NCBI GenBank assembly: GCA_031291845.1
Contig: JARLIH010000150.1
Coordinates: forward strand, 1 to 53,566
Length of the DNA stretch: 53,566 bases
DNA from: Isosphaeraceae bacterium
GTDB lineage: Bacteria; Planctomycetota; Planctomycetia; Isosphaerales; Isosphaeraceae
Reading direction: 5' to 3'
This document shows positions 2,505-53,566 of this stretch, piece after piece. Position 1 is the stretch's first letter. Each line of letters starts with the position of its first letter. The translations under genes and the position numbers were made by a program. The notes beneath the pieces are model-generated. The model worked only from the letters and a program-made list of their open reading frames with translations, searched no databases and was not told the origin of the DNA.

Positions 2505-3295
2505 CGTCTCTCCTTGGTAAACGCACGCGCCGACCCTCCTCCCGGCACCAGTAGCGTCTTGCGGAGGGTCGGGAGACGGCCGGTGTTCCAGGTCGGCCGT
2601 CTCCGCCCCGCCTCTCCGATCGTCTCCAAGGCCCGTAAGCATAGCAAAAACCGTTCGCGTTTGGAAGCTTTAAATTTCGATGCATGAGAGGATCATATGC
2701 AACTTTGGACGCCAACAAGAACCCGCTTGCACGTGGCCCGGCGTCAGCGGTTCGCGAGCCGGTCAACCCGATGCGTTCCGGCGCGACGTGGGCGCCCCCC
2801 ACATCCATTGGAAGGCCGAGTGACCGAGAACGCGTAACGGAATTGCATTGAGCAGAGAACCAAGTGCCGCAGGTTCACGATCACGCACAAAACATTGAAA
2901 CCGCATCGAAACTTCACGTGCGTCTCGGGCCGCGGGCGAGCAGGTTCGTTCCTATTGTCGCGCAAGCAGCTTATTGCGATACCGATACACCTTCCGACGA
3001 TGACTGTCCGGGGGGTGTGCGCTAACGACTCAGCGCCCTGTCAGGGGCCGTGAACGGTATCCCCAAACGACGCGCCGGGTGGCATACCCGGAGTCGGCGA
3101 GGGACGCAGTCAACCCGCCTTGGTCGTGCGCCACGCCCGTCGAAGACTGCGGGTGTGCCACCCGGGATTGTTCCCCAGTCGGCTTCGTAATCGTCCGGGG
3201 CAAACCGGCGTCCGGGTGGGCACGGGTCGACCGGTCCCTTATAATCCCTCGGAAACACCGCGCTCCGTCCGACGCGCGGGGGCCAGGAGCTCGCC
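2505..3295. other. non-coding interval
   Basis: No frame here has a credible start, codon pattern or product. The left part (2640-2990) is less GC-rich than the neighbouring genes. The right part contains an inverted repeat pair (3075-3095 and 3145-3165). Promoters for the genes at 2504 and 3296 probably lie here, but no clear box pair was identified. Confidence 0.5.
3075..3165. repeat. inverted repeat pair, 21-bp arms
   Basis: The arms at 3075-3095 (CCGGGTGGCATACCCG...) and 3145-3165 (reverse complement, ending GTGTGCCACCCGG) match at 19 of 21 positions. Each arm also contains an internal short inverted repeat around CGGGTG/CACCCG. This resembles a dispersed extragenic palindrome, but copy number in the genome cannot be judged from the window. 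Confidence 0.6.
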
Positions 3296-4162
3296 ATGCC
3301 CGTGCTGGAGCGCGAGGAATACATCGAGCAAGCGTACTTCTTTCGCGCCTTCCGCGAGCGGCTCCTCGACGGCATGCCTGCGCAGGACGTCTTGGCCCGC
3401 ATCGGTGACGAGCTGCTCTCGACCACGCGGCTTCCTCTCGCCGTGTCGTTCCTCCACACCGAGATCAAAGGCTTGGGGCTCATGGGCCCCGCGATGGAGC
3501 GAATCAGCCACTACTTCACTGCGCTCCAGACTCACATCATCACGCAGGCCGAGCTGGACGTCAGCCGGTTCACGGTCGACCAGGCCCTCCTGATCCTCGA
3601 ACGCGAGGCGAAATACAAGGCCGACGGCCCCTCGCTGGCCGGCCTCTTCGTCTACCAATTCGAGGCCCTTTCGCGCAACCGGCTGGGCTACGGCAAAGGG
3701 CTCGCCGCGATGGCCGAGGACCCGTTCTACGACGAAGCCTGGCGCGACTACATCCTCACCCTCGGGGCCCGCCTCGGTGATGTCGATTTCGCCGATTTGA
3801 TCTACGTCCGCTCCGCCTTTTTCGTCACCGAACGGCGCCGGCTGAACCCCGGCTTCATGCCCAAGTTCCCCACGCTGTTCGGCGAGAAGGAAGGGAAGAT
3901 CGCCCGGGCGAACCGCGGACGCGACCCGCTCTACCTCTTTTCAGCACTGCAACGTCAGCTCAATTACCCGGAGGTCCCGCGGCCGCGTCGTCCCGACGAA
4001 GCCGAGGCACGCATCGCGCTCCTCGAAGCGCGCGTTGCTCTGCTTGAGAACCGCCTCAAGGCCTTGGACGCGGTAGGGACGGGCGACGTCGACCTGTCGG
4101 CGCTCCGAGTCAAACCCGAAGACACCGCCGGACCTCCGGCCGGTTGGGGCGTACAGGGATAA
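3296..4162 (+). CDS. conserved hypothetical protein with C-terminal coiled coil
   Basis: A 288-residue soluble protein without signal peptide. Residues 1-215 are predominantly helical and include an FVYQFEALSRNRLGYGKGL stretch. Residues 230-262 form a short coiled coil (EARIALLEARVALLENRLKAL heptads). AGGAG precedes the ATG by six bases. I do not recognise the family. The following secreted FG-GAP gene starts 42 bp downstream on the same strand, so the two may share a transcript. Confidence 0.8.
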   Translation: MPVLEREEYIEQAYFFRAFRERLLDGMPAQDVLARIGDELLSTTRLPLAVSFLHTEIKGLGLMGPAMERISHYFTALQTHIITQAELDVSRFTVDQALLILEREAKYKADGPSLAGLFVYQFEALSRNRLGYGKGLAAMAEDPFYDEAWRDYILTLGARLGDVDFADLIYVRSAFFVTERRRLNPGFMPKFPTLFGEKEGKIARANRGRDPLYLFSALQRQLNYPEVPRPRRPDEAEARIALLEARVALLENRLKALDAVGTGDVDLSALRVKPEDTAGPPAGWGVQG

Positions 4163-4204
4163 CGCGTGTTGACCAAGGCAACGCAAAGACACCGAGGCAA
4201 GAAC

Positions 4205-5401
4205 ATGCTGAGATGTGCCCTGGGATTGGGGACCGCGGTGGGTCTGACACTGGCGCTTGCGCAACCGGCGTGGGCCGTCGAATTCGAGCGAGTCGTGATC
4301 GACGATGCGTTCCCGGGGGCGTACCAGGTCGAGGTCGCCGACGTGAACGGCGATGGCAAGCCGGACGTCGTCGCGGTCGGGGGCGGGACCTGCGCGTGGT
4401 ACGAGAACCCAAAATGGACGAAGGAAGTGCTCGCGGGGCCGAAGCTCACCCCCGGGATCATCAGTAGCGCCACGGCCGACGCCGAGGGGCGGGGCCGCGC
4501 GCAGGTCGCGCTCGCGTACGAGTTCGCGATGAACCAGCCGGCGAAGGGCGAGCTGCTCTTCTTAAGGCAGTCGGTCTCCGACAAGCCACCGCTGAGTGTG
4601 ACCGCCGTCGGCCACATCGGGAGCATTCATCGCCTCCGTTGGGGGGACCTCGACGGCGACAAGCGGCTCGACCTGGTCATCGCGCCGATCTTCGGTCCGT
4701 CGGCCAAGCCGCCGGCCTTCAACCAGGAAGGCGCGACGGTCCTGGCGTACCGGAAGCGGGTCGACGACACGACGATCGATTTCCGCGAGGCCGAGAAGGT
4801 CGGCGTCGCGCCCGTGCTGCACGCGATCGATGTCGTGGACATCGATGAGGACGGCCGCGCTGACGTCCTCACCGCCAGCAACCTCGGTGTCACGCGGATG
4901 AACCTCGGCAAGGACGAAACCTGGATATCCACTCCCCTCGTCCCGGGCGCCCCGGGCGAATCGCCCAAACGGGGCTCGAGCGAGGTCCACGTCGGCCGCC
5001 TGCGCGACGGCCGCAAGTTCGTGGCGACGATCGACCCCTGGCACGGTTCCCAGGTCGCGGTCTGTTTGGCGGAACGCCCGGGATCACTCGTGTTTGGACC
5101 GCGAACGGTGATTGACGACACGCTGGCCGACGGGCACGCGCTCTGGGTGGCGGACGTGGATGACGACGGCGACTCGGAAATCTTTGCCGGCCATCGTGGT
5201 GCGGACCATCGCGTCTCGGTCTACGACTTTGACGGCAAGGCCTGGAACCGCACGGTCCTCGACCGCGCGATCGCCGCGCAGGACCTGCGCGGCGGCGACC
5301 TGGACGGGGACGGCACACCCGACGTCGTCGCGGTCGGCGGCAGCACGCACAACGTCGTCTGGTATAGAATGCGACGGAACAACCGAACAGGTAGGCGCTG
5401 A
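4205..5401 (+). CDS. secreted FG-GAP/VCBS-repeat protein
   Basis: A 398-residue exported protein. The ATG at 4205 places a clean Sec signal (LRCALGLGTAVGLTLALAQPAWA) at the N-terminus; an upstream in-frame ATG at 4166 would bury it. The body has repeated Ca-binding-like motifs of the FG-GAP/VCBS type: DVNGDGKPDVV, DLDGDKRLDLV, DIDEDGRADVL, DVDDDGDSEIF, DLDGDGTPDVV. These build beta-propeller blades. It is a typical planctomycete chromosomal gene and the last host-like gene before the phage region. A symmetric element begins at the final base of its stop codon. Confidence 0.87.
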   Translation: MLRCALGLGTAVGLTLALAQPAWAVEFERVVIDDAFPGAYQVEVADVNGDGKPDVVAVGGGTCAWYENPKWTKEVLAGPKLTPGIISSATADAEGRGRAQVALAYEFAMNQPAKGELLFLRQSVSDKPPLSVTAVGHIGSIHRLRWGDLDGDKRLDLVIAPIFGPSAKPPAFNQEGATVLAYRKRVDDTTIDFREAEKVGVAPVLHAIDVVDIDEDGRADVLTASNLGVTRMNLGKDETWISTPLVPGAPGESPKRGSSEVHVGRLRDGRKFVATIDPWHGSQVAVCLAERPGSLVFGPRTVIDDTLADGHALWVADVDDDGDSEIFAGHRGADHRVSVYDFDGKAWNRTVLDRAIAAQDLRGGDLDGDGTPDVVAVGGSTHNVVWYRMRRNNRTGRR

Positions 5402-10428: not shown

Positions 10429-10848
10429 ATGGCAGGCCGTGGAGGTAAGCGAGCGGGCGCTGGGCGTAAGCCGAAGCGGGAGAAGCACAAGAACCCCGTT
10501 CAGGCTGCTGAGGATCGCATCCGCGATAAGCTTCCACATTTGATTGATAAGTTGTTCGAACTGTCGGACGGCATTGAGGTTGTGAAGCAAACGCAGCACG
10601 GCGAAAAGAGCTATCGCGAGCCGCCGTCATTCAAGGCCCTGGAGTACCTCTGTAACCGGGTGCTAGGCAAGCCGACCGAACGGCTTGAGCACAGCGGGAA
10701 GGACGGTGGTCCGATCGAGGTGACCGCCACCGTGAAGAACAAGGCAGCTCGCGAGTTGGAGGAATGGCAAAAGGAGATGCGGACCAAAATGCTGAGTTCC
10801 TCAAGTGTGCTGCCGACTGCGCCTACTTCACCGACACCTACGGGGTGA
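10429..10848 (+). CDS. terminase small subunit-like protein
   Basis: A 139-residue basic protein. It opens with the GGKRAGAGRKPKREKH pattern that is characteristic of many phage terminase small subunits and related DNA-packaging adaptors. The middle is helical and ends with an E-rich helix (AARELEEWQKEMRTK). Small subunits bind the packaging site and recruit the large subunit. Position directly before and overlapping the large subunit (85 bp) supports the call. Confidence 0.75.
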   Translation: MAGRGGKRAGAGRKPKREKHKNPVQAAEDRIRDKLPHLIDKLFELSDGIEVVKQTQHGEKSYREPPSFKALEYLCNRVLGKPTERLEHSGKDGGPIEVTATVKNKAARELEEWQKEMRTKMLSSSSVLPTAPTSPTPTG

Positions 10849-12281
10849 TCGATGACGCGCAGGGTTACGGCGATGGCGGCGGGACGATGCCGTTTCGGCT
10901 CTGGCCGGCTCAGTGCAAGTTGCTCTGGACGCTGATGGGCGAGCGGTTGGTTCTGATCCTCAAGGCTCGCCAGCTCGGAATCTCCTGGCTCTGTTGCTCC
11001 TACGCTCTGTGGCTGTGCCTGTTTCATCCGGGGAAAGTCGTCCTGTTGTTCAGTCAAGGCGAGATGGAGGCGGTTGAGCTTTTGCGACGCATCAAGGCCC
11101 TCTACGACCGGTTGCCAGCGTGGTTGCGGGCGAAGCTCCCGGAACTTGAGCGCGACAACACGACCGAGCTTAAGTGGGCGAACGGGTCGCATGCGCGCTC
11201 TCTCCCCGCATCGCAGAAGGCTGGGCGGTCTCTCACGGCCTCGCTCGCGATCCTGGATGAGGCCGCCTTCCTTCAATGGGGCGACCGGCTCTACACGGCG
11301 ATGAAGCCGACCATCGATGGCGGTGGTCAGCTTGTGGTGCTCTCGACGGCGAACGGGATCGGCAACCTGTTTCACCGACTGTGGACGAAGGCGGTCCAGG
11401 GGCTGAACTCGTTCAAGACGGAGTTCCTTGCCTGGTGGGAGCGGCCGGGCCGGGATTCGCTGTGGTACGCAGCACGAGTCGCAGAGGCGACAGACCCGAA
11501 TCTCGTCAAGCAAGAGTACCCGGCGACCGCAACCGAAGCGTTCCTTGTCAGTGGTCGGACACGGTTCGCGTCAGAGTGGATCGAGGCCCAGGCGGCGAAC
11601 GTTCGGCCGGGGCTTCCCCGTTCCGAGTGGCCGGAAGCGCTTCGCTGGATGGATGGCCTGACGGTCTACGTCCTTCCGACCGGACGATCGTCCGTCATCG
11701 GCGCCGACGTTGCCGAGGGGCTCGAGCACGGCGACTTCAGCGACGGCGCTTTGCTCGACCGGGACACCTGGGAAGAGCTCGCCGTCTTGCACGGGCACTG
11801 GGAACCGGACGAGTTTGCACGCCGGCTCAACGCGTTGTCTGAGGTTTACGAAGCAATGATCGCCGTGGAGCGGAACAACCACGGGCACGCAGTGCTGTCG
11901 ATGCTTCGGTCGCTGGGCTGCCCCCGAATCGGCATCGGCCATGACGATCGCCAGGGGTGGCTGTCGAACGTCCAGACCAAACCGCAGTCGATCGACATCC
12001 TCGCGACCGCGCTCCGTGACGAACTGATCGTCATTCACACGGAAGCGGCGCTCGACGAGCTCCGAATCTACCGCGTCATGGCGGACGGTAAGACGGGCGC
12101 CCCCGAAGGCTACCACGATGATCGGGTGATGAGTCGAGCGATCGGACTTGCTTACATCCAGTGGGCCGCCGAGCCCGAGCCCGCCCAGGCCGGCGGCGCG
12201 CTCCCCATTCTCGCCGGCGCACCCTTCGGCCGGGAGTACCATCGCGCTAACGGTCTCACCATTCCTGGGGGACTCGGCTGA
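10764..12281 (+). CDS. terminase large subunit
   Basis: A 505-residue DNA-packaging motor. The ATPase domain shows a Walker A variant, KARQLGIS (67-74), Walker B LAILDEAAF with D165/E166, and a coupling motif STAN near 194. The C-terminal RNase H-like nuclease has candidate metal ligands in GADVAEG (D315), AVERNNHG (E369) and YHDDRVMS (D452/D453). The length is usual for the family. It overlaps the small-subunit gene. The ribosome binding site is squeezed against the ATG, so an alternative nearby start is possible. It works with the portal encoded immediately downstream. Confidence 0.93.
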   Translation: MAKGDADQNAEFLKCAADCAYFTDTYGVIDDAQGYGDGGGTMPFRLWPAQCKLLWTLMGERLVLILKARQLGISWLCCSYALWLCLFHPGKVVLLFSQGEMEAVELLRRIKALYDRLPAWLRAKLPELERDNTTELKWANGSHARSLPASQKAGRSLTASLAILDEAAFLQWGDRLYTAMKPTIDGGGQLVVLSTANGIGNLFHRLWTKAVQGLNSFKTEFLAWWERPGRDSLWYAARVAEATDPNLVKQEYPATATEAFLVSGRTRFASEWIEAQAANVRPGLPRSEWPEALRWMDGLTVYVLPTGRSSVIGADVAEGLEHGDFSDGALLDRDTWEELAVLHGHWEPDEFARRLNALSEVYEAMIAVERNNHGHAVLSMLRSLGCPRIGIGHDDRQGWLSNVQTKPQSIDILATALRDELIVIHTEAALDELRIYRVMADGKTGAPEGYHDDRVMSRAIGLAYIQWAAEPEPAQAGGALPILAGAPFGREYHRANGLTIPGGLG

Positions 12282-13873
12282 TGCTCGGACCCTTCGGAAC
12301 GGGAGTGTGGTCGACGTCCGGCCCCTGGGGTGCCAGCGGCATGCCCGCGATTGGCGTCCCGGTGCCCGATGCCGATCCGACGCAAGAGTGGATCGCCAGC
12401 GGGCCGGGCCGGTACACGCCGACCATCCCTCAGATCCTCCCGGAGGCAATCGACCGGGTTACGAACCGGTATGGGTTCGCGGCGTACGATCTGATGTTGG
12501 CGACCGACCCCGTGGCGTGGTCGTCGTACCTGGCGGTCAAGCTCGGCATCCTCAACGGTCCGATCAAGATCCTTCCCGCAGTCCGCGACTCCCGCTATCG
12601 CTACCGCGATCCGGCGACACGCTTGGCCGAGGGGAATGACCCGGCGAAGGACGCAAAAGTCGTCGATCCGAACGCGAAGCTCAACCCGAAACAGAAGCTC
12701 GCCCTCGAGGTAGCCGAGTTCTGCGAACGCGACATCAAGCGGTTGCGGCGCCCCCTGAAGTGGACGCTCTTCCAACTCCTCGACTGCATCAAGAACGGGA
12801 ACATCCTCGCCGAGAAGACGCGCCAGTACTTGGAGACCGGCGCCGACGCGGGAAAGCTGGGCCTGGCCAAGGTCAAGTGCAAGCCGTACTGGGCGTGGCG
12901 CTACGTGGTCGACTGCTGGATGGACCCGACCGGGATCCTGACCTACGTCCCCCCGCTCCGATCGGTCGCCGCAATCCCCGACAACCAGGCGCAGGCGGCG
13001 ATCGGCGGGTTCCTGATCCTGCCCATGGAAAAGTTCGTTCGCATGGAGTGGCTGCCGAAGGACAGCGACCCGCGGGGGACGAGCGGTCTCGAGGTTGCTT
13101 ACGAGGCCTATAACTTGAAGAAGCAACTCTACCCCCAGTTCTACCGGCACGGCGTGCGGTTCGGGTCGCCCAGCGTCGACATGGAGCTGGCCCCGGGCGA
13201 CATCACGCAGTCGTATCCGGTCGACCCGCGCACCGGCCTGTCGCGGACGGACCTGCCGAAGATCAGTGCCACCCAGCGGGCCCTGGAGGCCCTGGAGGGT
13301 TTCCAGAATGGCAGCCGGATGGCACGCCCCAACGGCTCCAAGCTCAACCTGTTCGAGTCGAAGTCCAAGGGGGAGTTTTTCTTCTCCGCGTTCGACTACC
13401 TCGACCGCCAGATGGCGCTGGGGATTGGCCTCCAGGTGCGGGCCACGCTCGAGTCGAAATTCGGCTCGCGCGCCGACTCCGAAACCGCCGAGAATACGCG
13501 CTCACTCGCGATCGACTACGGTCGAGAGGTTGCCTCAGACATGGGATCGCGTGAGATTTTGTATGACTCGATCAAGCTGAATTATGGCGAGGAGATCGCT
13601 GAGGAACTCTGCCCTATTCTGGCTGTCGGCGATACCGAGCAGCACGACCGGAGCGACATGGTCAAGGCTATGGCCAGCGTCGGCTACAAGCTTGGACCGT
13701 CTCAGTTCGAGGAGGTCGACGTGATGCTCGGTATGCCCGAGCGCGACCAGGACGCCGACCTGGAGACAATGAAGACGACGCTGGCGATGGAGGCCGAGCA
13801 CAGCGGTCCCGATGATGAGCCGACGCCGAAGGGTGCCACGGCGGTCAACCCGAAGGAGAGCAACCGGCCATGA
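12281..13873 (+). CDS. portal protein (DUF935 / Mu gp29-like)
   Basis: A 530-residue protein with features of the DUF935 portal group: an early helical region around LMLATDPVAWSSYLAVKLGIL (one-sided body), the block KCKPYWAWRYVVDCWMDP, and a C-terminal helical region with EFFFSAFDYLDRQMALGIGLQVRATLES. Portals form the dodecameric DNA channel at the capsid vertex. It starts at the last base of the terminase stop codon and ends overlapping the next gene. The very acidic C-terminal tail is typical. Confidence 0.83.
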   Translation: MLGPFGTGVWSTSGPWGASGMPAIGVPVPDADPTQEWIASGPGRYTPTIPQILPEAIDRVTNRYGFAAYDLMLATDPVAWSSYLAVKLGILNGPIKILPAVRDSRYRYRDPATRLAEGNDPAKDAKVVDPNAKLNPKQKLALEVAEFCERDIKRLRRPLKWTLFQLLDCIKNGNILAEKTRQYLETGADAGKLGLAKVKCKPYWAWRYVVDCWMDPTGILTYVPPLRSVAAIPDNQAQAAIGGFLILPMEKFVRMEWLPKDSDPRGTSGLEVAYEAYNLKKQLYPQFYRHGVRFGSPSVDMELAPGDITQSYPVDPRTGLSRTDLPKISATQRALEALEGFQNGSRMARPNGSKLNLFESKSKGEFFFSAFDYLDRQMALGIGLQVRATLESKFGSRADSETAENTRSLAIDYGREVASDMGSREILYDSIKLNYGEEIAEELCPILAVGDTEQHDRSDMVKAMASVGYKLGPSQFEEVDVMLGMPERDQDADLETMKTTLAMEAEHSGPDDEPTPKGATAVNPKESNRP

Positions 13874-14073
13874 GTGAGCCGACCAAAGACGACCAAACCC
13901 CGACCGCTAAGGGCAAGTCGCTCCACCGCACCGACCAGGAGCTTGAGCGCCTAAGCGAAGTGACGCAGTGGGATGTCAACCAGGCTCGAGCGTTCTGGGA
14001 AGACAACGCCCCCGACGACTTCAAGGGGCTGATCGAAGCCGAACCGAAAGCGGAAGAACCGGACACGCCATGA
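13870..14073 (+). CDS. small acidic head-module protein
   Basis: A 67-residue acidic protein, coupled to the portal stop by ATGA. The segment LERLSEVTQWDVNQARAFWEDNAPDDFKGLIEAE is helical. No family recognised; position suggests a head assembly accessory. Confidence 0.6.
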   Translation: MSEPTKDDQTPTAKGKSLHRTDQELERLSEVTQWDVNQARAFWEDNAPDDFKGLIEAEPKAEEPDTP

Positions 14074-14258
14074 GCCAGACCACTCGCGACCGTCGAACCG
14101 CCCCGCTTCCGGCCCCGGCCCTCTTCCCGCGTCGCCACACCCTGGCGTGGATGGAGTGGGATGCGTCGTATCGGCCGTTCGATGGCAACCCAATTTGGGC
14201 GGACAATCGTAGTATCGCGAATCAGCCGGCCGAGACGAACCCGAACGAAGGCAAATGA
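14070..14258 (+). CDS. small hypothetical head-module protein
   Basis: A 62-residue product starting in an ATGA overlap. It contains a HTLAWMEWDASYRPFDGNPIWADNR block with many aromatics. There is no known domain. It ends 7 bp before the minor-head/protease gene. Confidence 0.5.
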   Translation: MSQTTRDRRTAPLPAPALFPRRHTLAWMEWDASYRPFDGNPIWADNRSIANQPAETNPNEGK

Positions 14259-14265
14259 ACACCCC

Positions 14266-16410
14266 ATGGCCCAACGCTGGCCTCGCTACACCTGGGACCC
14301 CAACGCCCGCCAGTACCGCGCGGAATCGGGCCGGTTCGTGTCGCGCAAGGACGTCAAGGCGGCCCTGTCCGCCGTCATTGACGCCACGGTGGACGACGTC
14401 CGGCGAGTCAGCGAACAACTCCAGCGCGGGAAGATCGAGATTGCCGACTGGCAATTGGAGATGGAGCGGTCTCTTAAGACCATCCACACCGCGGCCACGG
14501 CGATCGCCACCGGCGGCTGGATCCAGGCGATGCCGGTCGACTGGGCGGAGTGTGGACGACGGCTCAAGGACGAGTACGGCCACCTTCGCGACTTTGCCGT
14601 CGAGCTGGAGAACGGCCTACCGCCCGACGGCCGGTTCCTTGCTCGCGCCGTCTCGTACGCCCGCGCTGCCCACGGCACTTACGAGGTCATCGGTCGCCGA
14701 CTGGCCCTGGGCGGCGGAGCGGTCTGGGCGAAACGCACCCGGCACGCCCTACACTCGTGCGAGCGCTGCATCGAGTACGAGGACCGCGGATGGGTGCCGG
14801 CCAGCACGCTTCCGGCCCCGTCGACTGAGTGTGAGTGCGGATCGAATTGTCAGTGTACCGCAGAGTATTCGTGGTCGATCGATCACCCGGAGGGATCTGC
14901 CGTGAAGACACGAGGGGTACGCGGCAAGGCCTGGGGCTGGGTGGCGAGTCAGGCCTGGGCGATCGAACGGTCCTCACTCAAGACCATCCTCAGCATTGCG
15001 GAGCGAACCAACGCCGATCCGGCAGCCGTCGCTGCCCAGCTTGGCCGAGAGCTCGACAACACCCGGTGCGTCACCGTGCGCGACGGTGTTGCGACCATCC
15101 CTGTCCGTGGACCGATTTCTCGGTACGCCGGGATCATGTCCGAGCTCAGCGGGGCGACGTCGATCGACGATCTGGCCGTGGACCTGCGCACGGCTGCCGA
15201 AGACCCAAGCGTACGCGCGATCATCCTCGAAATCGACTCCCCAGGCGGCCAGGCAAACGGTGTCGGCGAGTTGGCCGGACAGATTCGAGATGCGTCCGAG
15301 CGCAAGCCCGTCATTGCCTACGTTGGCGGCTATGCGTGCTCCGCGGCTTACTGGCTTGCAAGCGCGTGCGGGGAAATCGTCACGGCGGAAACCGGTGTGC
15401 TGGGCAGCATTGGATGCGTCCTGGCGGTGTCGACCGGGGATGACGACGAAGTAGAGTTTGTCTCCTCTCAGTCCCCTAACAAGCGCCCGGATCCCGAGAC
15501 GAAAGCCGGCCGCGCAGAGATCCAGGCTCACGTCGATGCGCTGGCACAAATCTTCATCGACAGCGTGGCGGCAAACCGCGACATGGAGCCGGAGAACGTC
15601 GTTGAGCGCTTCGGCCGCGGCGGCCTGAAGATCGGCAAAGCCGCGGTCGATGCGGGCATGGCCGATCGGATCGGCACGTACGAGGGACTACACAAAGAGC
15701 TCTCCGAATCACCAAGCGGCGGCCGCGCCGTGTCGTTTTTCTCCGCTCGTGGCGCGGCCGCCACAGCGACCACTGGACCAAAACCGATGAAGCTCAACAT
15801 GAAGGCCACGCTGGCCCGGTGGCTCGCTGCCGGGAAGCCGGAGACGATCGAGGCCAGCGAGGCCGACCAGCACGAGGACGTCGACACGTTCCTCGCGGCG
15901 ATTGGCACCGGACAGAAGCCGCCCAAGGTTGATTTACCCTCGGCCGTCGACGTCAAGGCGATCGAGGCCAAGGCCCAGCGGGACGCGCTGGTGATGGCTT
16001 ACAGTCACCAGGCCAAGACGTGGGCGCAGGCCCAGGTCAAGGCCGGGCGCATCGATCCGGCGAACGTTGAGGCGCTCGCCGTGATGTACGTGTCGCACGC
16101 GGTGGACGACGCGGTGAACCCGCTGAAGGTGCCGACGGCGAGCGGTGATCAGGTCGTCAGCCGCCTCGAAACTTTCACCACGGGCGTCGAGGCGCGACCG
16201 GCCAAGGGTGCCGTCCAGACCCAGGAGTTTGTCCCGTCCGACGCGGCCACCGTCCAGCAGCAGTTGAAGGCCGGCGGCTTCAAGCTGTTCGACAACGGCG
16301 CCACAACCCCGGACGAGGCGAAGCGGGCCGAGTCGCTGTCCCGCGTCGAGCAGATGCTTCAGGGCTCCGAAATCGGCCAGATGGCGCTGCGCGAGGCCGA
16401 CGCGAAGTAA
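14266..16410 (+). CDS. minor head protein - S49 prohead protease - scaffold fusion
   Basis: A 714-residue composite. Residues 1-220 resemble a minor head (Mu gp30-like) segment with a Cys cluster (HSCERCIEYED, ECECGSNCQC). Residues 250-480 form an S49/ClpP-like protease: EIDSPGG near 321 and GGYACSAAYWLAS near 353 with the nucleophile Ser, and a Lys-containing stretch near 405. Residues 500-714 are a charged helical scaffold-like tail. Lambda-type phages often nest protease and scaffold (C/Nu3), but addition of a minor-head domain in one frame is unusual. The ATG at 14266 gives MAQRWPRYTWDP; a longer reading is less plausible. Confidence 0.78.
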   Translation: MAQRWPRYTWDPNARQYRAESGRFVSRKDVKAALSAVIDATVDDVRRVSEQLQRGKIEIADWQLEMERSLKTIHTAATAIATGGWIQAMPVDWAECGRRLKDEYGHLRDFAVELENGLPPDGRFLARAVSYARAAHGTYEVIGRRLALGGGAVWAKRTRHALHSCERCIEYEDRGWVPASTLPAPSTECECGSNCQCTAEYSWSIDHPEGSAVKTRGVRGKAWGWVASQAWAIERSSLKTILSIAERTNADPAAVAAQLGRELDNTRCVTVRDGVATIPVRGPISRYAGIMSELSGATSIDDLAVDLRTAAEDPSVRAIILEIDSPGGQANGVGELAGQIRDASERKPVIAYVGGYACSAAYWLASACGEIVTAETGVLGSIGCVLAVSTGDDDEVEFVSSQSPNKRPDPETKAGRAEIQAHVDALAQIFIDSVAANRDMEPENVVERFGRGGLKIGKAAVDAGMADRIGTYEGLHKELSESPSGGRAVSFFSARGAAATATTGPKPMKLNMKATLARWLAAGKPETIEASEADQHEDVDTFLAAIGTGQKPPKVDLPSAVDVKAIEAKAQRDALVMAYSHQAKTWAQAQVKAGRIDPANVEALAVMYVSHAVDDAVNPLKVPTASGDQVVSRLETFTTGVEARPAKGAVQTQEFVPSDAATVQQQLKAGGFKLFDNGATTPDEAKRAESLSRVEQMLQGSEIGQMALREADAK

Positions 16411-16467
16411 CGCAACATACGCTTACCGGGCCGGCGCGACGTAGCACCGACCTTCACGACCGACAAC

Positions 16468-16481
16468 CCTCGATGACGAGG
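16468..16481 (+). promoter_or_regulatory. short hairpin in the leader of the decoration gene
   Basis: CCTCG (16468-16472) pairs with CGAGG (16477-16481) around ATGA, followed by TTTT. It is 11 bp before the next ATG. A very similar CCTCGATG...GAGG element sits at 8713-8726 before another gene. It may be an attenuator-like terminator or a translation signal. Confidence 0.4.
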
Positions 16482-16492
16482 TTTTCAGACCC

Positions 16493-17623
16493 ATGTCTTT
16501 CCCCTTGGACCTTCCGATTGCGGAGTTCCAGATCCCGACCATTGAGCCGGTCTGGCTTCCGGAAGTCGCACCCGCCGACGAAGTCGTGCTCGCGGCTTCG
16601 GCCGTCTACCCCGCGGGCTCTCTCATTGGCGAGCTGACCGCCACCCCGGGTACTTTCGGTCTCTACACCGGCGGCCTCGTCGGCGCCGTCACGGTTACCG
16701 CGGCGGGAACCGGCTACACGTCACCGCCGACCGTCGCCTTCACCGGCACGGCGGGCACCGGTGCGACGGCGGTGGCCTACGTCTCCGGCGGCGCTGTCGT
16801 TGGCGTCGTGGTCACCAACGGCGGCGATGGGTACGAGAGTGCCCCGACCATCGCCTTCACGGCGGTTAACGGCGGCTCAGGCGCGACGGCCACGGCCACC
16901 ATCGCGGGCGGTGCCGTCGTCGGCATCACGGTGACCGGCGCGGGCAGCGGCTACCTGGCGGCGCCGACCGTCAGGTTCTCCGGCGGAGCCGGCGGCGCGA
17001 CGGCAACCGCGACCCTGACCGCAGTGACGCCGACGCTCGTCGCTGGCGGCGCCACGACCTACCTCGTGGGCGACGTGCTCACCGTCGTCGGTGGCACCTT
17101 CACGACAGCCGCCACGATCAAGGTCCTCACGGTCTCCTCGGGCGAGGTCGCGACGTTCGCCGTGCTTAACGGCGGCGCCTACAGTGTCATTCCGACCGGA
17201 ACGCTCTCCACCACGGGCGGCGGGGGTACGGGCTGCACGCTCACGCTGGTCTGGGGCGTCGGCGCCGTGAGCGTCACGGCCGGTGGTTCCGATTACACAG
17301 TGACCCCCACGGTTGGATTCAGCGGAGGCGCGGGCTCGGGCGCCACGGCTACCGCCACGTTGAGTTACGCCACGGATGGGACCCAGAGCCCTACCGCGAT
17401 CGTCTCCAAGTCCTGCGCCACCGACGCCAGCGGCGCCATCTGGGACGGCGAGGTTGCTGGGGTGTCCCAGTTCGGTGAGTCGCAACAGTCGGTCAAGGCG
17501 TTCTTCGGCGGGTACTTCCGGACCTTTGATTGCCCGAACATCGACGCCCACGCCCTGAGCGTCATGGGTGGGTCCCTTAAGCGTGGCAGCCTGGCTAGCG
17601 ACACGGGGATCTTCCACTTCTAA
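16493..17623 (+). CDS. head decoration protein with internal beta repeats
   Basis: A 376-residue protein. The first 60 residues (VVLAASAVYPAGSLIGELTATPGTFG) match the start of lambda gpD-type decoration proteins, and the last 75 resemble their C-terminal part (VSKSCATDASGAIWDGEVAGVSQ...AFFGGYFRTFDC). Between them sit at least four copies of a roughly 37-residue repeat with the pattern G-x-G-Y-x3-PTV-x-F-x-G-G-x-G-ATATA. Classical gpD is about 110 residues, so the repeats form a long insertion, presumably projecting from the capsid. The gene lies directly before the major capsid protein, as D precedes E in lambda. Confidence 0.72.
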   Translation: MSFPLDLPIAEFQIPTIEPVWLPEVAPADEVVLAASAVYPAGSLIGELTATPGTFGLYTGGLVGAVTVTAAGTGYTSPPTVAFTGTAGTGATAVAYVSGGAVVGVVVTNGGDGYESAPTIAFTAVNGGSGATATATIAGGAVVGITVTGAGSGYLAAPTVRFSGGAGGATATATLTAVTPTLVAGGATTYLVGDVLTVVGGTFTTAATIKVLTVSSGEVATFAVLNGGAYSVIPTGTLSTTGGGGTGCTLTLVWGVGAVSVTAGGSDYTVTPTVGFSGGAGSGATATATLSYATDGTQSPTAIVSKSCATDASGAIWDGEVAGVSQFGESQQSVKAFFGGYFRTFDCPNIDAHALSVMGGSLKRGSLASDTGIFHF

Positions 17624-43312: not shown

Positions 43313-43684
43313 TCACCTCGGCTTCCGTTTTTTCGGCTGGCCACCGGCACCCTCGGTATCCTCATCAACAATGCTTCCGGAAGCGGGAGTATCGTCCGAA
43401 GAAAGTGAAGCAGCAGCCTTGCGCGACGCCGCCAGCTTGTCTAGTCGCGCAATATGTCGAGCCAGCGCTTCCGCAACGACCTCGTGCCCGAGCTCCTCAA
43501 GCCAGAGCCATGACGCAAGCAACAGTGCGTCCTGAGTAATTGGACGCTCTTGAAACTCAAGCCGAGCGTCTCTCTTCAAATCCGTGTGGATGTGCTCTAA
43601 CGCGGCTTTCGCCTTGTCGAAGATCCGCACACTGATCTCGCCGTCGAAGATGTCGGACCGCTTCTTCTTTCCCATGTCGTGCAT
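43313..43684 (-). CDS. hypothetical helical accessory protein
   Basis: A 123-residue helical protein, Lys-rich at both ends. It has EELGHEVVAEALARHIARLDKLAASRKAAASL in the middle. ATGs at 43684 and 43675 are both possible; GGAG is 11 bases before the first. It is the first gene leftward of the operator region 43727-43789 and divergent from the early rightward operon. Confidence 0.58.
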   Translation of the reverse strand: MHDMGKKKRSDIFDGEISVRIFDKAKAALEHIHTDLKRDARLEFQERPITQDALLLASWLWLEELGHEVVAEALARHIARLDKLAASRKAAASLSSDDTPASGSIVDEDTEGAGGQPKKRKPR

Positions 43685-43726
43685 TGTCGCAAACGCTCCG
43701 ATCGTAAGTCCATAGACTTCTTAGAC

Positions 43727-43789
43727 TTCCAAGAATCTTGGAAATCTTGGAATATCGGGTCTTGCAATCCACGTCGTGGAAGCTATGAT
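43727..43789 (+). promoter_or_regulatory. early rightward promoter and operators
   Basis: TTGCAA (43762-43767) and TATGAT (43784-43789) are 16 bp apart on the plus strand, and the spacer holds the palindrome CCACG-T-CGTGG (43769-43779). Upstream is a second palindrome, TTCCAAGAATCTTGGAA (43727-43743), with CTTGGAA repeated at 43746-43752. Downstream, TCCAGGA occurs three times in 43806-43830. It probably controls the long rightward early operon and the leftward 43684 gene. Confidence 0.65.
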
Positions 43790-43837
43790 CTCCGGTGTAC
43801 GACGTTCCAGGAATTCCAGGAACTCCAGGAGACAACC

Positions 43838-44017
43838 TTGCCGACGACCCGGAAGAAAAAAAAAGACGGCCGGGCGATCCTTCACGTCTGGGTCGATCCG
43901 GTGCTGCGCCGGCGATTCAAAGCCGCCGTGGAACTTGAGGGCCTGACCATCGAAAAGAAGGTCGAAAACCTCATGAAGCAAACTATCGACGCGGTCTTAC
44001 CCGCCGCCGCCTCTTGA
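43838..44017 (+). CDS. small ribbon-helix-helix-like protein
   Basis: A 59-residue basic protein from a TTG with GGAG six bases upstream. It has a Lys-rich N-terminus, then a strand-helix-helix (AILHVWVDPVLRRRFKAAVELEGLTIEKKVENLMKQTI), the pattern of ribbon-helix-helix regulators. A longer reading would translate the operator repeats. First gene of the early operon, so autoregulation at the upstream palindromes is plausible. Confidence 0.65.
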   Translation: MPTTRKKKKDGRAILHVWVDPVLRRRFKAAVELEGLTIEKKVENLMKQTIDAVLPAAAS

Positions 44018-44030
44018 CAGGAGCCGCCGC

Positions 44031-44324
44031 ATGTTCCTGCGCATCGGGAGCTTCCTGATCAACCTCGAATTTGTCGAAGACATCCAACTCTTCGCCAAGT
44101 TCACTCTCGCCGGCGCTGAAGGCACCGAGACGATTTCCGTGATCGCAGTGCAAACGCGGGGCGGAGGGCTTAAGCGTTACCCGGTTCCAACGGGCGAAGA
44201 GACGCGATGGGCTTCGGCCATACGGAACCAACTCAACGAACACGACTTGATCTCCAGGAGTTCCTCGGCGTTCGATTCGTCTCACCCAGACGCCGACAAG
44301 CAACTCTCCGCCGCCGCCTCCTAA
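44031..44324 (+). CDS. hypothetical early protein
   Basis: A 97-residue protein. The first 50 residues are strand-rich (LRIGSFLINLEFVEDIQLFAKF, AEGTETISVIAVQTRGGGLKRY); the end is a Ser-rich tail. It starts 13 bp after the previous stop. Function unknown; small early phage genes in this position commonly take part in host takeover. Confidence 0.58.
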   Translation: MFLRIGSFLINLEFVEDIQLFAKFTLAGAEGTETISVIAVQTRGGGLKRYPVPTGEETRWASAIRNQLNEHDLISRSSSAFDSSHPDADKQLSAAAS

Positions 44325-44388
44325 CCCCCTTCGCCCCACCGTCGCCCCGGGCGTGCCGGGACGGCGCCAACGACACGGAGACCTGACC

Positions 44389-44637
44389 TTGGCACACGAT
44401 CGCAACGGCAAGCCGCTGAAGAACGGCGACGAAGTAATCCTTCGCGGGACGGTCGAGATCACCAGCACAAGCGTTGACTTCTGCAACGTGCTGGTCCGGG
44501 TGCCACACCCGACCGACCCGAACCAGAACCTTTCGGCGTCCGGCAACAGCCGGTGCTGTGAGCTCGTCGAAACCGAACCGGCGGACGGCGAGATCATCGA
44601 AGACGACGTCACCGAAGACGCCGCCGCAAGCGCCTAA
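44389..44637 (+). CDS. hypothetical early protein
   Basis: An 82-residue acidic protein from a TTG start after a weak GGAG. It has a compact beta region (HDRNGKPLKNGDEVILRGTVEITSTSVDFCNVLVRV) resembling a small OB- or SH3-like barrel, and an acidic C-terminus. Early operon member next to the solitary CRISPR repeat; an anti-defence role is only a possibility. Confidence 0.55.
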   Translation: MAHDRNGKPLKNGDEVILRGTVEITSTSVDFCNVLVRVPHPTDPNQNLSASGNSRCCELVETEPADGEIIEDDVTEDAAASA

Positions 44638-44652
44638 CACGGAGCCTCGCGC

Positions 44653-44859
44653 ATGGCCGAACCCAAGACATTGAGCCTGACCGACCTGAAGACCCGGTAC
44701 GGCCTTGACCCGCTGTATCTGTCGGGGCTCATCGACGGCCTGGCGCTCAAGACCTATCACGGCCAGCGCGGCTCCAAGCGGATCGCCGAGTCGGACCTCC
44801 CGAAAGTCGAGAAGGCCCTGGCCCGCGTTGGCAAGCTGACCGCAGCTAAGGCCAACTGA
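44653..44859 (+). CDS. small HTH-like protein
   Basis: A 68-residue protein with a helix pair (SLTDLKTRYGLDPLYLSGLIDGLALKTYHGQRGSKRIAESDLPKVEKAL) like a MerR/excisionase winged helix. Such proteins bind DNA as regulators or recombination directionality factors. It is the gene immediately before the hairpin and CRISPR repeat, 39 bp upstream of the latter. Confidence 0.6.
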   Translation: MAEPKTLSLTDLKTRYGLDPLYLSGLIDGLALKTYHGQRGSKRIAESDLPKVEKALARVGKLTAAKAN

Positions 44860-44871
44860 CCGTAACACGCT

Positions 44872-44891
44872 ATTCGCCGACAGTGGCGAAT
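44872..44891 (+). terminator. hairpin directly before the solitary CRISPR repeat
   Basis: ATTCGCC (44872-44878) pairs with GGCGAAT (44885-44891) around GACAGT. No T-run follows. It sits 7 bases ahead of the repeat and could end the upstream transcript or define the 5' end of a small RNA. Confidence 0.45.
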
Positions 44892-44898
44892 TCTTGAT

Positions 44899-44930
44899 GT
44901 CGCTCCCTCGTGGGAGCGTGGATTGAAACG
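44899..44930 (+). CRISPR. solitary type I-C-like CRISPR repeat (candidate RNA anti-CRISPR)
   Basis: A 32-nt element begins GTCGCTCCC and ends GTGGATTGAAACG, with a 7-bp stem CGCTCCC/GGGAGCG (44901-44907/44912-44918) and a 4-nt loop TCGT. The length, GTCGC start, central stem and GTGGATTGAAAC end match type I-C repeats. There is one copy only; no second repeat, leader or cas gene is in the window. It lies between two early phage genes. Solitary repeats in phages are known to act as RNA anti-CRISPRs (Racr) that titrate Cas proteins; this role is inferred here. Confidence 0.8.
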
Positions 44931-45007
44931 AGCGTTGGTGCTCGATTGTGACTCACCCCAAACCGCCCGATCGGCGCGTCGAAGGTACGCGCTGAAGGAG
45001 CCCCTAC

Positions 45008-45313
45008 GTGTCCACACTAACCGCAACCCTGTCACCCGCCGACATCGCCGCGTCCGCCGCCCAGCTGACGCGCAAGGCCCTCGAGGCCGACGACCACTTC
45101 ACGCGACGCGAGTACCTCACCGAGGCGCGCTCCGTCGTCGCCGGCCTGAAGGATGCCGTCGAGCGCGCGGCTTTCAACCTCCGTCAGCGCTCACTGACCG
45201 GGCAAGCCGGCAACGCCCTGCACGAGGCCGTCAAGGCCACTTGCGACACGGACAAGGCCAACTGGCTGACGGTGGCCGTGTACTACCTCGATCGGATCGC
45301 GGGAGGAAAGTGA
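45008..45313 (+). CDS. hypothetical early helical protein
   Basis: A 101-residue Ala-rich helical protein starting at GTG with AAGGAG eight bases upstream. It has no known motif (TARSVVAGLKDAVERAAFNLRQRS pattern). It is the first gene after the solitary repeat and is coupled to the next gene by a GTGATG junction. Unknown role. Confidence 0.6.
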   Translation: MSTLTATLSPADIAASAAQLTRKALEADDHFTRREYLTEARSVVAGLKDAVERAAFNLRQRSLTGQAGNALHEAVKATCDTDKANWLTVAVYYLDRIAGGK

Positions 45314-45822
45314 TGCCGTTTTACTGGCTGACCACCACGGACACCGACGGCGAGTGCGCTTACACGCCCTTCGCCGCCCCGGACGACCACCAGGCCGTGC
45401 GCGACGGTCTGGCCGCCGTAAACGCGCTGCGAGCGGCCGGCTTCGACCGGATCGCCAGCGCCACCATCGACACCCTGGAGATCGGCTCCTACGACCCGAC
45501 CACGGGCGAGATCAGCACCACGCGCAACCGCCGGCTGTACGACAGCGCCGACCCGGATAGCTCGATCACCGTCGTCGACTTGCCCACCGCGGCGTCGCTC
45601 GGCCTGGCGCACGGCCAGCGCCCCGACGCGCCGAAACCGCCGGTGTGCGATGGGCCGGTGTTCGACCTGCCGCCACGACCACAACAGGGGCGCACGACGG
45701 ACCGCGCGGTGTCTGCCGATTTCCGCATACGCGCCGACGACTTCGAAGAGTTCGAAGAGTTCGAGGAGGCGGAAATCGGCATCACCGCCCAGGATCGTTT
45801 CCGACGACGTGGCGACCACTGA
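45313..45822 (+). CDS. hypothetical early protein with acidic tail
   Basis: A 169-residue protein whose ATG overlaps the previous stop by one base. Beta and helix segments (FYWLTTTDTDGECAYTPFAAP, ALRAAGFDRIASATIDTLEIG) come before a Pro-rich linker. An acidic run, DDFEEFEEFEEAEIG, near the end may mimic DNA or bind basic proteins. Function unknown. Confidence 0.6.
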   Translation: MPFYWLTTTDTDGECAYTPFAAPDDHQAVRDGLAAVNALRAAGFDRIASATIDTLEIGSYDPTTGEISTTRNRRLYDSADPDSSITVVDLPTAASLGLAHGQRPDAPKPPVCDGPVFDLPPRPQQGRTTDRAVSADFRIRADDFEEFEEFEEAEIGITAQDRFRRRGDH

Positions 45823-47892: not shown

Positions 47893-48050
47893 TGGATTGG
47901 CGAACGCCCAGTAACGAGAAAGAGAAGTACGCGGCCTACCTCGCGAGCCGGGAATGGTCGCTACTCTTAAACGGGAGGCCAATCGCCGACTACCACAGGC
48001 AGGCCGACGAGACGATAGCCACAGTAACGGCAGAGGGCCCCCAACCCTAA
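47889..48050 (+). CDS. 53-residue protein, HNH-like fragment
   Basis: A short frame between two coupled genes: the ATG overlaps the upstream TGA (ATGA), and the TAA overlaps the next ATG (TAATG). The product contains NEKEKYAAYLASREWSLLLNGR, like the start of small HNH nucleases (Y-L-x-S-x-x-W), but no catalytic His cluster is present. The perfect coupling on both ends supports real translation. Confidence 0.6.
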   Translation: MMDWRTPSNEKEKYAAYLASREWSLLLNGRPIADYHRQADETIATVTAEGPQP

Positions 48051-50494
48051 TGGCCACCGTGGACCCGTCGCGAATCCCTGAGCTACTAAGGTGCGCCCAC
48101 CAGTGGGTCGTGTACCGGATCGTCGAACGCAAGGGCAAGCTCGACAAGCCCCCGTTCGACCATCGCACGGGAAGGCGCGGCGATATCACCGACTCGGCCA
48201 TTTGGATGCCGCTGAGCAGGGCCTTGGAGGTCTCGCGCAACTACGACGGGGTCGGCTTCGTCTTCGCCCCTAACGGCGGCATCACTGGCGTGGACCTGGA
48301 TAAGTGCGTCAACGACGAGGGCGCAATCGAGCCGTGGGCCGAACGTCTCGTGCACGCGCTCAACAGCTACACCGAGTTCAGCCCGAGCCGGCGCGGTCTC
48401 CACATCGTGGTCCGCGGCGAGTTCGTAGCAGGGTGCGGACACAAGGTCAACGGATTCGGGGAGACCGGGATCGGGGCGATCGAACTGTACGACCGGAACC
48501 GCTACTTCACGGTCACTGGCGACCACCTCGACGGGACGCCTGAAACCATCGAGGACCGTCAGGAGGAGCTTACGGCGTTGTGCGACGAGCTCTTCCCCAG
48601 GCGGAACGGGCACGCCGGCGCGGGCGGTACGGTCGCGGCACCAGGGCGGAACGGGATCCCGGATGAGGAGTTGCTCGAGATCGCGCGACGAGCGTGGAAC
48701 GGGAAGGCGTTCCGCAAGCTCTTCGACGAGGGTGAGCTTACGAAGCACAACGGGGACTGGTCGCGTGCGGACATGGCGCTGTGTTCGCACCTCGCGTTCT
48801 GGACCGGGGGCGACGGCGCTTCGGTGGACCGACTGTTCCGCCAATCCGCACTGATGCGCAACAAGTGGGATGAGCGCCGGGGCGATCACACCTATGGGGC
48901 GCGCACCATCGACAGGACCCTATCCTCGATGCGCGCCTACTTCTCCGCTGGCGCTTTGGTGCCGGAGCCGGGAGCACACGACCTGGATGAGGAGCAGGCA
49001 CAGAGCATCGTAGAGGCGGTGCGCCGTGCACGGTCATGGGAAACTCCGGTGCTGGCCAAGCCCGACCCGGCGACGCCATTCCCCGTGGACGTGCTGCCCC
49101 CGGATCTAGCGTGGCTCGTGGAGGCCGGGGCCGAGTGCATGAGCTGCCCCCGCGACTTCCTCGGTGCTGCTGCGCTGGCCGTTGCTGGTGCCGCGATTGG
49201 TCGTTCCCTGGCCATCGCCATCAAGGACTCGTGGATCGAGTCGGCCGCGCTGTACGTCTCGGCCGTGGCCGATCCCGGCTCAACCAAGAGCCCAGCTATT
49301 TCACTGGTGTCCAAGCCGATCTTTGCAATCAGTGAATCGTGCCTGAACCAGTTCCGGGCAGAGGTCGAACGGGCCAAGGAACAGCAACAAATGGCAATGG
49401 CGAACCGAAGGGCTGGGGGACCGGTGGCGCCACCGGCAGAGCCTCCTCCACAGTTGCGCCGGATCGCTGTCTCAGACACAACGTGCGAGGCCTTGGGACC
49501 GATCCTGGTTGACAACCCGCGCGGTGTAGTCATGGTCCGAGACGAGCTCACCGCACTTGTCGCCGGCCTGAACCAGTACAAGAGCGGCGGCAAGGGTGCC
49601 GACCGCCAGTTCTTCCTCTCGGCCTGGTCCGGCACCGCAGTGACCGTGGATCGGAAGGGTCAGCACGACCGCGGGCCGCTCCACATCCCGCACCCGTTCC
49701 TGTCAATCCTCGGCGCGATGACGCCGGACATGCTCACGGAGCTCGCTGAGGGCAAGGGCCGGGACGACGGCTTCATCGATCGGTTCCTGTTCACGCTGCC
49801 CGATCCGGTTCAGGTGCGGTGGGTTCCCGAGACGGTTCCGGGAGAGGCCATGGACCGATGGGGCGCGGCGGTGCGTGTGCTCTGGAACCGGCCAATGCTG
49901 CTCGATAACAAGGGGCGGCCGTGCCCCCGGTTCCTACGCTTCACCGATGACGCACTTGCGCTGTTTGCCACCTGGTTTAACGAGCACTGTTCCGAAACGG
50001 AGCAGTTCGACTTCCCCCACCAGCTCCACGGTGCCTGGTCGAAGCTACGCGCGTACTGTGCCCGGCTCGCGCTAATCCTCCACTGCCTCAGTATGGCCTA
50101 CAACCCAACCGGGGAAGAGGACGACACGGAGCGCGTCGGGCCCGCCGCCGTGGCCGGCGCGATTGCTCTAGTGAACTATTTCAAGGTCCACACCAGGAGG
50201 GTCAAGTCTCTCCTTGGGGGCGGCCTGTACGACAACCAGGACGCCCGAGCGGTGGTGCGCTGGCTTCGCTCCACGGGCCGCGAGACGGTCTCTGAGCGCG
50301 ATGTCAAGCGCAACTTCCCCCAGCGGTTCAGGGAGGAGACGGAAGCCTACACGAAGGCCGTGGACTGGCTCGTGGACCGTCACTGCCTTCGCGTCGTGGA
50401 AGGTGCAAAACAGCAGGGGCCGGGGCGGAAACGGTCGCTGACGTTCGAGGTGAACCCGACTCTCTTGAGTGGAGTTTGCGTGCATGCAACCTAA
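48050..50494 (+). CDS. replication protein: PrimPol-like N-terminus and DUF3987 ATPase
   Basis: An 814-residue protein. Residues 1-175 resemble the NrS-1 type archaeo-eukaryotic primase-polymerase: QWVVYRIVERKGKLDKPPF, GVGFVFAPNGGITGVDLDKC with the DLD metal ligands near 81, and SPSRRGLHIVVRG with His near 117. A C-terminal DUF3987-like ATPase has a P-loop-like ADPGSTKS near 405 and a winged-helix-like end. It probably primes and unwinds phage DNA. The 101-bp palindrome begins within its stop codon. Confidence 0.8.
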   Translation: MATVDPSRIPELLRCAHQWVVYRIVERKGKLDKPPFDHRTGRRGDITDSAIWMPLSRALEVSRNYDGVGFVFAPNGGITGVDLDKCVNDEGAIEPWAERLVHALNSYTEFSPSRRGLHIVVRGEFVAGCGHKVNGFGETGIGAIELYDRNRYFTVTGDHLDGTPETIEDRQEELTALCDELFPRRNGHAGAGGTVAAPGRNGIPDEELLEIARRAWNGKAFRKLFDEGELTKHNGDWSRADMALCSHLAFWTGGDGASVDRLFRQSALMRNKWDERRGDHTYGARTIDRTLSSMRAYFSAGALVPEPGAHDLDEEQAQSIVEAVRRARSWETPVLAKPDPATPFPVDVLPPDLAWLVEAGAECMSCPRDFLGAAALAVAGAAIGRSLAIAIKDSWIESAALYVSAVADPGSTKSPAISLVSKPIFAISESCLNQFRAEVERAKEQQQMAMANRRAGGPVAPPAEPPPQLRRIAVSDTTCEALGPILVDNPRGVVMVRDELTALVAGLNQYKSGGKGADRQFFLSAWSGTAVTVDRKGQHDRGPLHIPHPFLSILGAMTPDMLTELAEGKGRDDGFIDRFLFTLPDPVQVRWVPETVPGEAMDRWGAAVRVLWNRPMLLDNKGRPCPRFLRFTDDALALFATWFNEHCSETEQFDFPHQLHGAWSKLRAYCARLALILHCLSMAYNPTGEEDDTERVGPAAVAGAIALVNYFKVHTRRVKSLLGGGLYDNQDARAVVRWLRSTGRETVSERDVKRNFPQRFREETEAYTKAVDWLVDRHCLRVVEGAKQQGPGRKRSLTFEVNPTLLSGVCVHAT

Positions 50495-53288: not shown

Positions 53289-53566
53289 ATGCCCGAGTTC
53301 AAGATTACTGCCGTTTTGGATGGCGCGCTACTCTTTGAATGCGAAGCCGAGTCGCTCAAGGAGGCCCTGGAGATGGCCGTCGCAAAAAAGGCCAGCCTCT
53401 CCGGGGCCAGCCTCTCCGGGGCCAGCCTCGACGGGGCCAACCTCTTCAGGGCCAGCCTCTCCAGGGCCAACCTCGACGGGGCCAGCCTCTCCGGGGCCAG
53501 CCTCTCCGGGGCCAGCCTCTCCGGGGCCAGCCTCGACGGGGCCAACCTCTTCAGGGCCAGCCTCTC
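53289..53566 (+). CDS. pentapeptide-repeat protein (partial, runs off the window)
   Basis: The ATG has GAGGAG six bases upstream. After 36 residues ([26 protein letters not shown]...) a run of A-(S/N)-L-x-x units begins and continues to the window edge: [25 protein letters not shown]. Pentapeptide repeats fold into a right-handed beta-helix that can mimic DNA, as in gyrase inhibitors, but here the Ser- and Gly-rich units are unusually uniform. The 3' end is outside the window. Confidence 0.85.
53392..53566 (+). repeat. 15-bp tandem repeats in the pentapeptide gene
   Basis: The coding repeat is nearly identical at DNA level, with the unit GGGGCCAGCCTCTCC and variants (GACGGGGCCAACCTCTTC) arranged in a higher-order pattern of about 120 bp. 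Such uniform repeats can change length by slippage. The array continues past the window. Confidence 0.75.

Follow-up and report, generated by a model that had tools for sequence, protein, structure and literature searches.

A prophage of an Isosphaeraceae bacterium was found to carry a solitary type I-C CRISPR repeat. We predict that the repeat is transcribed together with the neighbouring phage genes and consider it somewhat more probable than the reverse that it acts as an RNA anti-CRISPR (Racr) decoy for the type I-C Cas proteins of the host. The DNA analysed, here called the window, is a stretch of 53,566 nucleotides that makes up contig C492 of a 9.72-Mb genome (518 contigs, 98.49% complete, 9.2% contaminated). 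A type I-C locus with a CRISPR array is located on another contig of the same genome, C305.

The repeat, GTCGCTCCCTCGTGGGAGCGTGGATTGAAAC, is 31 nucleotides long and occupies positions 44899-44929 on the forward strand. The original prediction had described a single 32-nucleotide repeat at 44899-44930; the single repeat is present, but base 44930 is the first base past it. Folding of 44899-44930 reproduced the 7-bp stem with a 4-nt loop that had been read from the sequence (-14.1 kcal/mol, z -3.09). The 3' part of the repeat, GTGGATTGAAAC at 44918-44929, is the handle-forming end of type I-C repeats and is identical in the host array repeats. The pattern GTCGCNCC..GGNGCGTGGATTGAAAC matched the window once, while none of 100 dinucleotide shuffles contained a match, and a search of the window allowing up to nine mismatches without gaps found no second copy, as the original prediction had stated. 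Genome-wide the repeat pattern matched only the array repeats of C305 and the window site, with no match for the controls. Hairpins are plentiful in GC-rich DNA, and the element could in principle be a chance hairpin that merely resembles a repeat; with the shuffles and the controls both at zero, we give this explanation next to no credence. The handle GTGGATTGAAAC was found six times in the genome (one match for a reversed control pattern): four times in the C305 array, where a fifth repeat carries an altered base, once in a CreR-like element on C305 and once in the window. As all other copies are on C305, it is unlikely that a full array lies just outside the assembled contig. Rfam gave no match at its gathering threshold.

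The repeat sits in an intergenic gap of 148 nucleotides (44860-45007) between two small phage genes on the same strand, as had been claimed. It begins 39 nucleotides past a stop codon and ends 78 nucleotides ahead of a GTG start with a good ribosome-binding site. The upstream gene (44653-44859, +) encodes a protein of 68 amino acids and the downstream gene (45008-45313, +) one of 101 amino acids; searches with either protein returned only the query itself (for the former at E <= 0.001). The GC content at third codon positions was 85.5 and 85.3% in these two frames and 53.8% in a frame starting inside the repeat, which supports the two flanking frames as genes over the latter. No promoter-like site was found in the gap. 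A hairpin upstream of the repeat (44868-44888, +) is terminator-like by a loose rule, being the only one in 43600-45400 compared to a mean of 2.4 in shuffles. No cas genes were recognised among the 41 open reading frames of the window that were compared with one or more of Pfam, PHROGs and NCBIfam, in agreement with the original prediction. No recognised acr gene was found among ten neighbours of the repeat, and an anti-CRISPR protein next door was rejected for want of an informative family match. The designation of the region as a phage early operon is plausible, given the small forward-strand genes upstream of the primase/helicase gene.

The terminase, portal, protease, tape measure and primase/helicase genes on C492 identify the element as a tailed phage. 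The terminase large subunit, portal, maturation protease and a further structural gene were located at 10764-17623 (+) by PHROG matches, and the primase/helicase gene at 47954-50494 (+) by PHROG and Pfam matches. The latter protein holds an NrS-1 polymerase HBD domain and DUF3987. Host chromosomal DNA was found to the left of the prophage, where two genes (3295-5365, +) are colinear with the same-genus genome G001 (77.3 and 74.7% by blastn; 76% for the protein); a DUF1559 protein is encoded in the host DNA at the left end of the window. The protein of the second left-flank gene is 76% identical to that of G001, while in the 14 other family genomes searched its best match reached 55-65% identity in 11 and 34-37% in the remaining three. 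The gene found in G001 about 1.3 kb beyond this second gene has a homologue at 78% identity on contig C248. In window orientation, C248 carries unassigned frames, an excisionase-like frame (assigned by reading of its sequence), a 432-codon frame on the opposite strand with a PF00589 integrase domain and then host genes colinear with G001; PF00589 had no match on C492. Judged from this gene order, the phage was most likely inserted between genes that are near neighbours in G001, with C492 and C248 bracketing one locus. There is no overlap between these two contigs, and some of the prophage sequence that would join them may be absent from the assembly. Tandem repeats of the GCCAGCCTCTCCGGGG type occupy the end of C492 (window 53300-53566) and may explain the assembly break inside the prophage.

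We did not find close relatives of the phage. Viral contigs contained no relative of the primase or of the 101-amino-acid protein, and the repeat itself was not found there in exact form. Among 148 related genomes, the best matches to the primase covered part of the protein at 38-43% identity, and those to the protease were weak. Among phage records, three unannotated faecal phages matched the repeat at 88-91%, one of them at seven places, and none of these matches extended over the flanks.

Contig C305 encodes Cas3, Cas5d, Csd1/Cas8c, Cas7, Cas4 and Cas1 by Pfam and a frame that was assigned to Cas2 by reading of its sequence. Its array of five GTCGCCCCCCGTGCGGGGGCGTGGATTGAAAC repeats, one with an altered base, is at the contig end. 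A type I-C system therefore exists in the host group, where its absence would have spoken against a decoy. The C305 Cas proteins are 64.9-83.8% identical to those of five other same-family loci, whereas two class-level loci gave 43.7-65.5%. Because they are closest to the same-family loci, they support the assignment of C305 to this organism despite the contamination of the assembly. Repeats of the pattern used were found in 9 of the 148 genomes searched, this one included, and six of the nine were among the 45 genomes of this family.

The host repeat is of the same subtype as the phage repeat, but the match expected between them is incomplete, with identity in only 28 of 33 aligned columns. 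The phage repeat is closer to the repeat of genome G071 (30 of 32) and to Desulfovibrio array repeats (30 of 31). In the stem, a T-A pair of the phage repeat replaces a C-G pair of the host repeat, so that the fold is kept though the letters differ. The Desulfovibrio repeats come from two metagenome-assembled genomes (L069 and L070) with true type I-C arrays of 31-nt repeats, which have a 4-nt loop and are one base off the phage repeat. None of the five host spacers, one of which is clipped by the contig end, matched the prophage, and the need for a decoy in this lysogen is thus not visible.

The C305 locus was found to contain a solitary repeat of its own. This element, GTCACACCCTTTGGGTGTGTGGATTGAAAC (L008:6318-6347, +), is located between cas3 and cas5 and antisense to them, and the bases following it partly match a site flanked by TTC, which we take to be the PAM of type I-C, between the element and cas5. 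Seven cas loci were examined in full (L045 of G017 was too short and was left out): an antisense solitary element was present in three (C305, G005 and G042) and in none of the other four (G013, G024, G071 and G113). A search of the 45 family genomes for GTCAC..GTGTGGATTGAAAC gave four elements, adding one in G030 that is likewise between cas3 and cas5; the reversed control gave none. These antisense solitary GTCAC..GTGTGGATTGAAAC repeats, at L008:6318-6347 (+), L041, L044 and L115, thus belong to four type I-C loci of one family, and each has a partial match beside TTC ahead of its own cas5. Guides were scored over 24 nucleotides with every sixth left out, i.e., over 20 positions, in regions that were chosen after the first C305 match had been seen. 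The best TTC site within 700 nucleotides matched 15, 15, 15 and 17 of 20 positions in the four loci, scores that none of 2000 shuffled guides equalled in any of the four cases. When spacers from G000, G005 and G042 were each compared with the other two regions, no TTC site ranked in the top three.

By their anatomy, the four elements look like CreR-like autorepressors of type I-C. The C305 element has the anatomy that characterises a CreR: it is solitary, at a cas locus, and has a partial match of 15 of 20 beside TTC upstream of its own cas genes. CreR is named for types I-B, I-E and V-A in a 2026 review (PMC13131331), and another review ascribes it to Type I and Type V-A in passages where I-C is unnamed (PMC12737573). 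Title-level searches, with the primary CreR papers outside their scope, found no paper on a type I-C CreR.

The phage element resembles CreR (PMC13131331; PMC12737573) in consisting of one repeat followed by a spacer-like tail, outside any array. It differs in being away from cas genes, on another contig and without a partial match before cas5. Its best TTC sites were no better than those of shuffled guides, and it is neither at a cas locus nor provided with a partial match to a cas promoter beside a PAM. The stems differ as well: the phage element has GTCGC/GCGTGG as found in arrays, whereas the four host elements have GTCAC/GTGTGG. An origin of the phage repeat from a host CreR-like element, suggested by the short loop, was rejected, since the 31-nt Desulfovibrio array repeats share the 4-nt loop and the phage stem is of the array type.

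Lone type I-C repeats turned out to be frequent in viral contigs, where they run in the same direction as the gene that follows (loci L083-L095 and L117-L189), and some contigs (such as L127 and L170) have two or three of them spaced apart. The scan counted at least 120 stretches, and orientation and hairpin counts were drawn from 86 loci. It gave at least 70 lone repeats, the window included, of which nine near contig edges were dropped to leave 61. The 99 array repeats were treated separately, and any repeat followed by fewer than 36 bases was skipped and not counted. There are thus at least 60 other lone type I-C repeats away from edges. For start distance and orientation, duplicates were dropped by the 30 nucleotides after the repeat, which gave 55 rows when the window was counted and 53 when it was left out and the edge margin was widened. 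Among the matches listed, a start with a ribosome-binding site within 250 nucleotides was found on the sense strand for 30 of 53 viral lone repeats and on the antisense strand for 6 of 53, and the longest nearby frame was sense for 37 and antisense for 15 of the 53 (p 0.0055). Also among the matches listed, 11 of 53 lay within an open stretch of at least 150 codons on each strand, and some lone repeats may therefore be in genes. The window element is oriented with the phage genes, as are other viral lone type I-C repeats.

This placement could alternatively reflect a processing or regulatory site, at which the phage mRNA is cleaved by host Cas5 or its leader is bound by Cascade as it assembles, and the expression of 45008-45313 is set by host CRISPR activity. 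The sense-strand position of the repeat, 78 nucleotides ahead of a start that has a good ribosome-binding site, and the orientation bias of 30 versus 6 would fit with this. So would the 14 of 55 viral lone repeats, among the matches listed, that have such a start within 50 nucleotides; the window is one of the 55 but not of the 14. However, a compact phage genome puts any intergenic element near a start, the counts are uncontrolled for gap length, 78 nucleotides is more than one spacer length, and co-transcription would serve a decoy equally well, as for acrIC5-racrIC1. We consider a processing or regulatory role improbable.

The bases following the repeat (44930-44963, +) would take the place of a spacer. 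This pseudo-spacer starts with a small hairpin of -7.5 kcal/mol, the sole one at or below -7 among the at least 61 lone repeats (0 of 60 others), while 9 of 99 array spacers had one. Equal stability was reached by 379 of 5000 shuffles and by 643 of 4119 24-mers of the window; the hairpin is ordinary in such GC-rich DNA and was rejected as a special, seed-blocking feature. A one-repeat guide, in which the pseudo-spacer would direct host Cascade against a promoter in the manner of CreR or against a rival phage, would agree with a single repeat being able to yield a crRNA-like guide and with the host CreR-like elements having matching sites. Searches with the pseudo-spacer gave a different result. 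Its best TTC sites in four cas regions matched 10-11 of 20 positions, which 258-893 of 2000 shuffles equalled, and its best match in the phage at 40-50 kb was 10 of 20, reached by 298 of 300 shuffles; viral contigs gave no match to the pattern tried. Genome-wide there were 21 near matches, including the element itself, compared to 14 for a reversed control. The best genome-wide TTC match, C355:9207-9226, has the first eight guide bases intact, but it matches only 15 of 24 positions, falls within an open frame of 150 codons and is not an evident promoter. As no target above chance was found in the cas regions, the phage at 40-50 kb, the viral contigs or the genome, guide function was rejected, and we regard it as very unlikely.

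The repeat might also be a dead, functionless remnant, left as the final repeat when a mini-array was lost or when an array that the phage had once picked up decayed. That it has no target, no promoter-like site in its gap and no full identity to the host repeat is in accordance with decay. On the other hand, the handle and the fully paired 7-bp stem are intact, the stem differs from that of the host by a paired change, and the many lone type I-C repeats of viral contigs follow the direction of the genes. We find a remnant rather unlikely.

The known elements closest to the phage repeat are RacrIC1 and other Racr and the solitary repeat units described with them. In the published work, 2,103 solitary repeat units on viral sequences are reported, RacrIC1, which shares an operon with acrIC5, is shown to inhibit a type I-C system, and a figure legend gives Cas5 as the processing enzyme (PMC10651486). 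The window element is like those described there in being a solitary intergenic type I-C repeat of a prophage with a same-subtype host and an array-like hairpin. It differs from RacrIC1 as presented there in being a candidate, in having no recognised acr gene beside it and no promoter-like site in the gap, and in not being identical to the host repeat. As for a Racr, the repeat is truly solitary by the window and genome pattern searches; it is intergenic and on a mobile element, as judged from the gap, the third-position GC content and the phage genes, and the genes and array of C305 provide the host with a CRISPR-Cas system of matching subtype. The SRUFinder rule, by which identity and coverage to a known repeat have to be 90% or more, was applied by hand; it is satisfied through the Desulfovibrio repeats (30 of 31), while the host repeat (28 of 33) falls below it. 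Viral CRISPR mini-arrays (PMC11656645) share with the window element the presence of a CRISPR repeat in a virus without cas genes, but as described there they have host-identical repeats and spacers against related viruses, whereas the window element has one non-identical repeat and no target was found. A mini-array has at least two repeats around a virus-targeting spacer; here there is one repeat, with no viral-contig match to the pattern tried.

If the repeat acts as a decoy, the operon RNA would include it, and host Cas5, which cuts the crRNA repeat in type I-C, would bind the hairpin and cut at its 3' base. The released RNA would begin with the handle and collect Cas5, Cas8 and Cas7 on a targetless "spacer". 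Cas proteins would thereby be tied up in useless complexes, and interference is predicted to be lost.

The original prediction of an RNA decoy against a host type I-C system is partly supported, by the solitary type I-C repeat in a prophage and the type I-C locus and array in the same genome; the host array repeat shares the subtype of the phage repeat and differs from it in some positions. The case for it consists of a solitary, non-chance repeat with 30 of 31 positions shared with a true array repeat, the host type I-C locus, the fold-keeping stem change, the targetless pseudo-spacer, the co-orientation in viruses and the RacrIC1 precedent. Against it are the 28 of 33 identity to the host repeat, the gap without a promoter-like site, the loosely terminator-like hairpin at 44868-44888, the lack of a recognised acr gene among ten neighbours and the 0 of 5 host spacers with a match. 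Weighing both sides, we lean slightly towards the decoy. The element would then be one more Racr candidate for type I-C, of an already known kind, with RacrIC1 as the tested precedent.

The CreR-like elements in type I-C look more novel than the lone prophage repeat, and a prophage decoy would disturb CreR. We tentatively suggest, as a possibility that is more doubtful than the decoy itself, that one lysogen holds two opposed solitary type I-C repeats: a host CreR that holds down the cas5 operon via Cascade and a prophage decoy that removes Cas5 and Cascade. Such a decoy would also lift the CreR brake and raise the Cas level, so that the prophage RNA would have to out-produce a feedback loop built against inhibitors.

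Altogether, the decoy candidate, the prophage and the target CRISPR system are found in one genome. The presence of a CreR-like element in the same type I-C locus raises the question of whether RNA decoys provoke a rise in Cas proteins, as protein inhibitors do in the proposed anti-anti-CRISPR loop.
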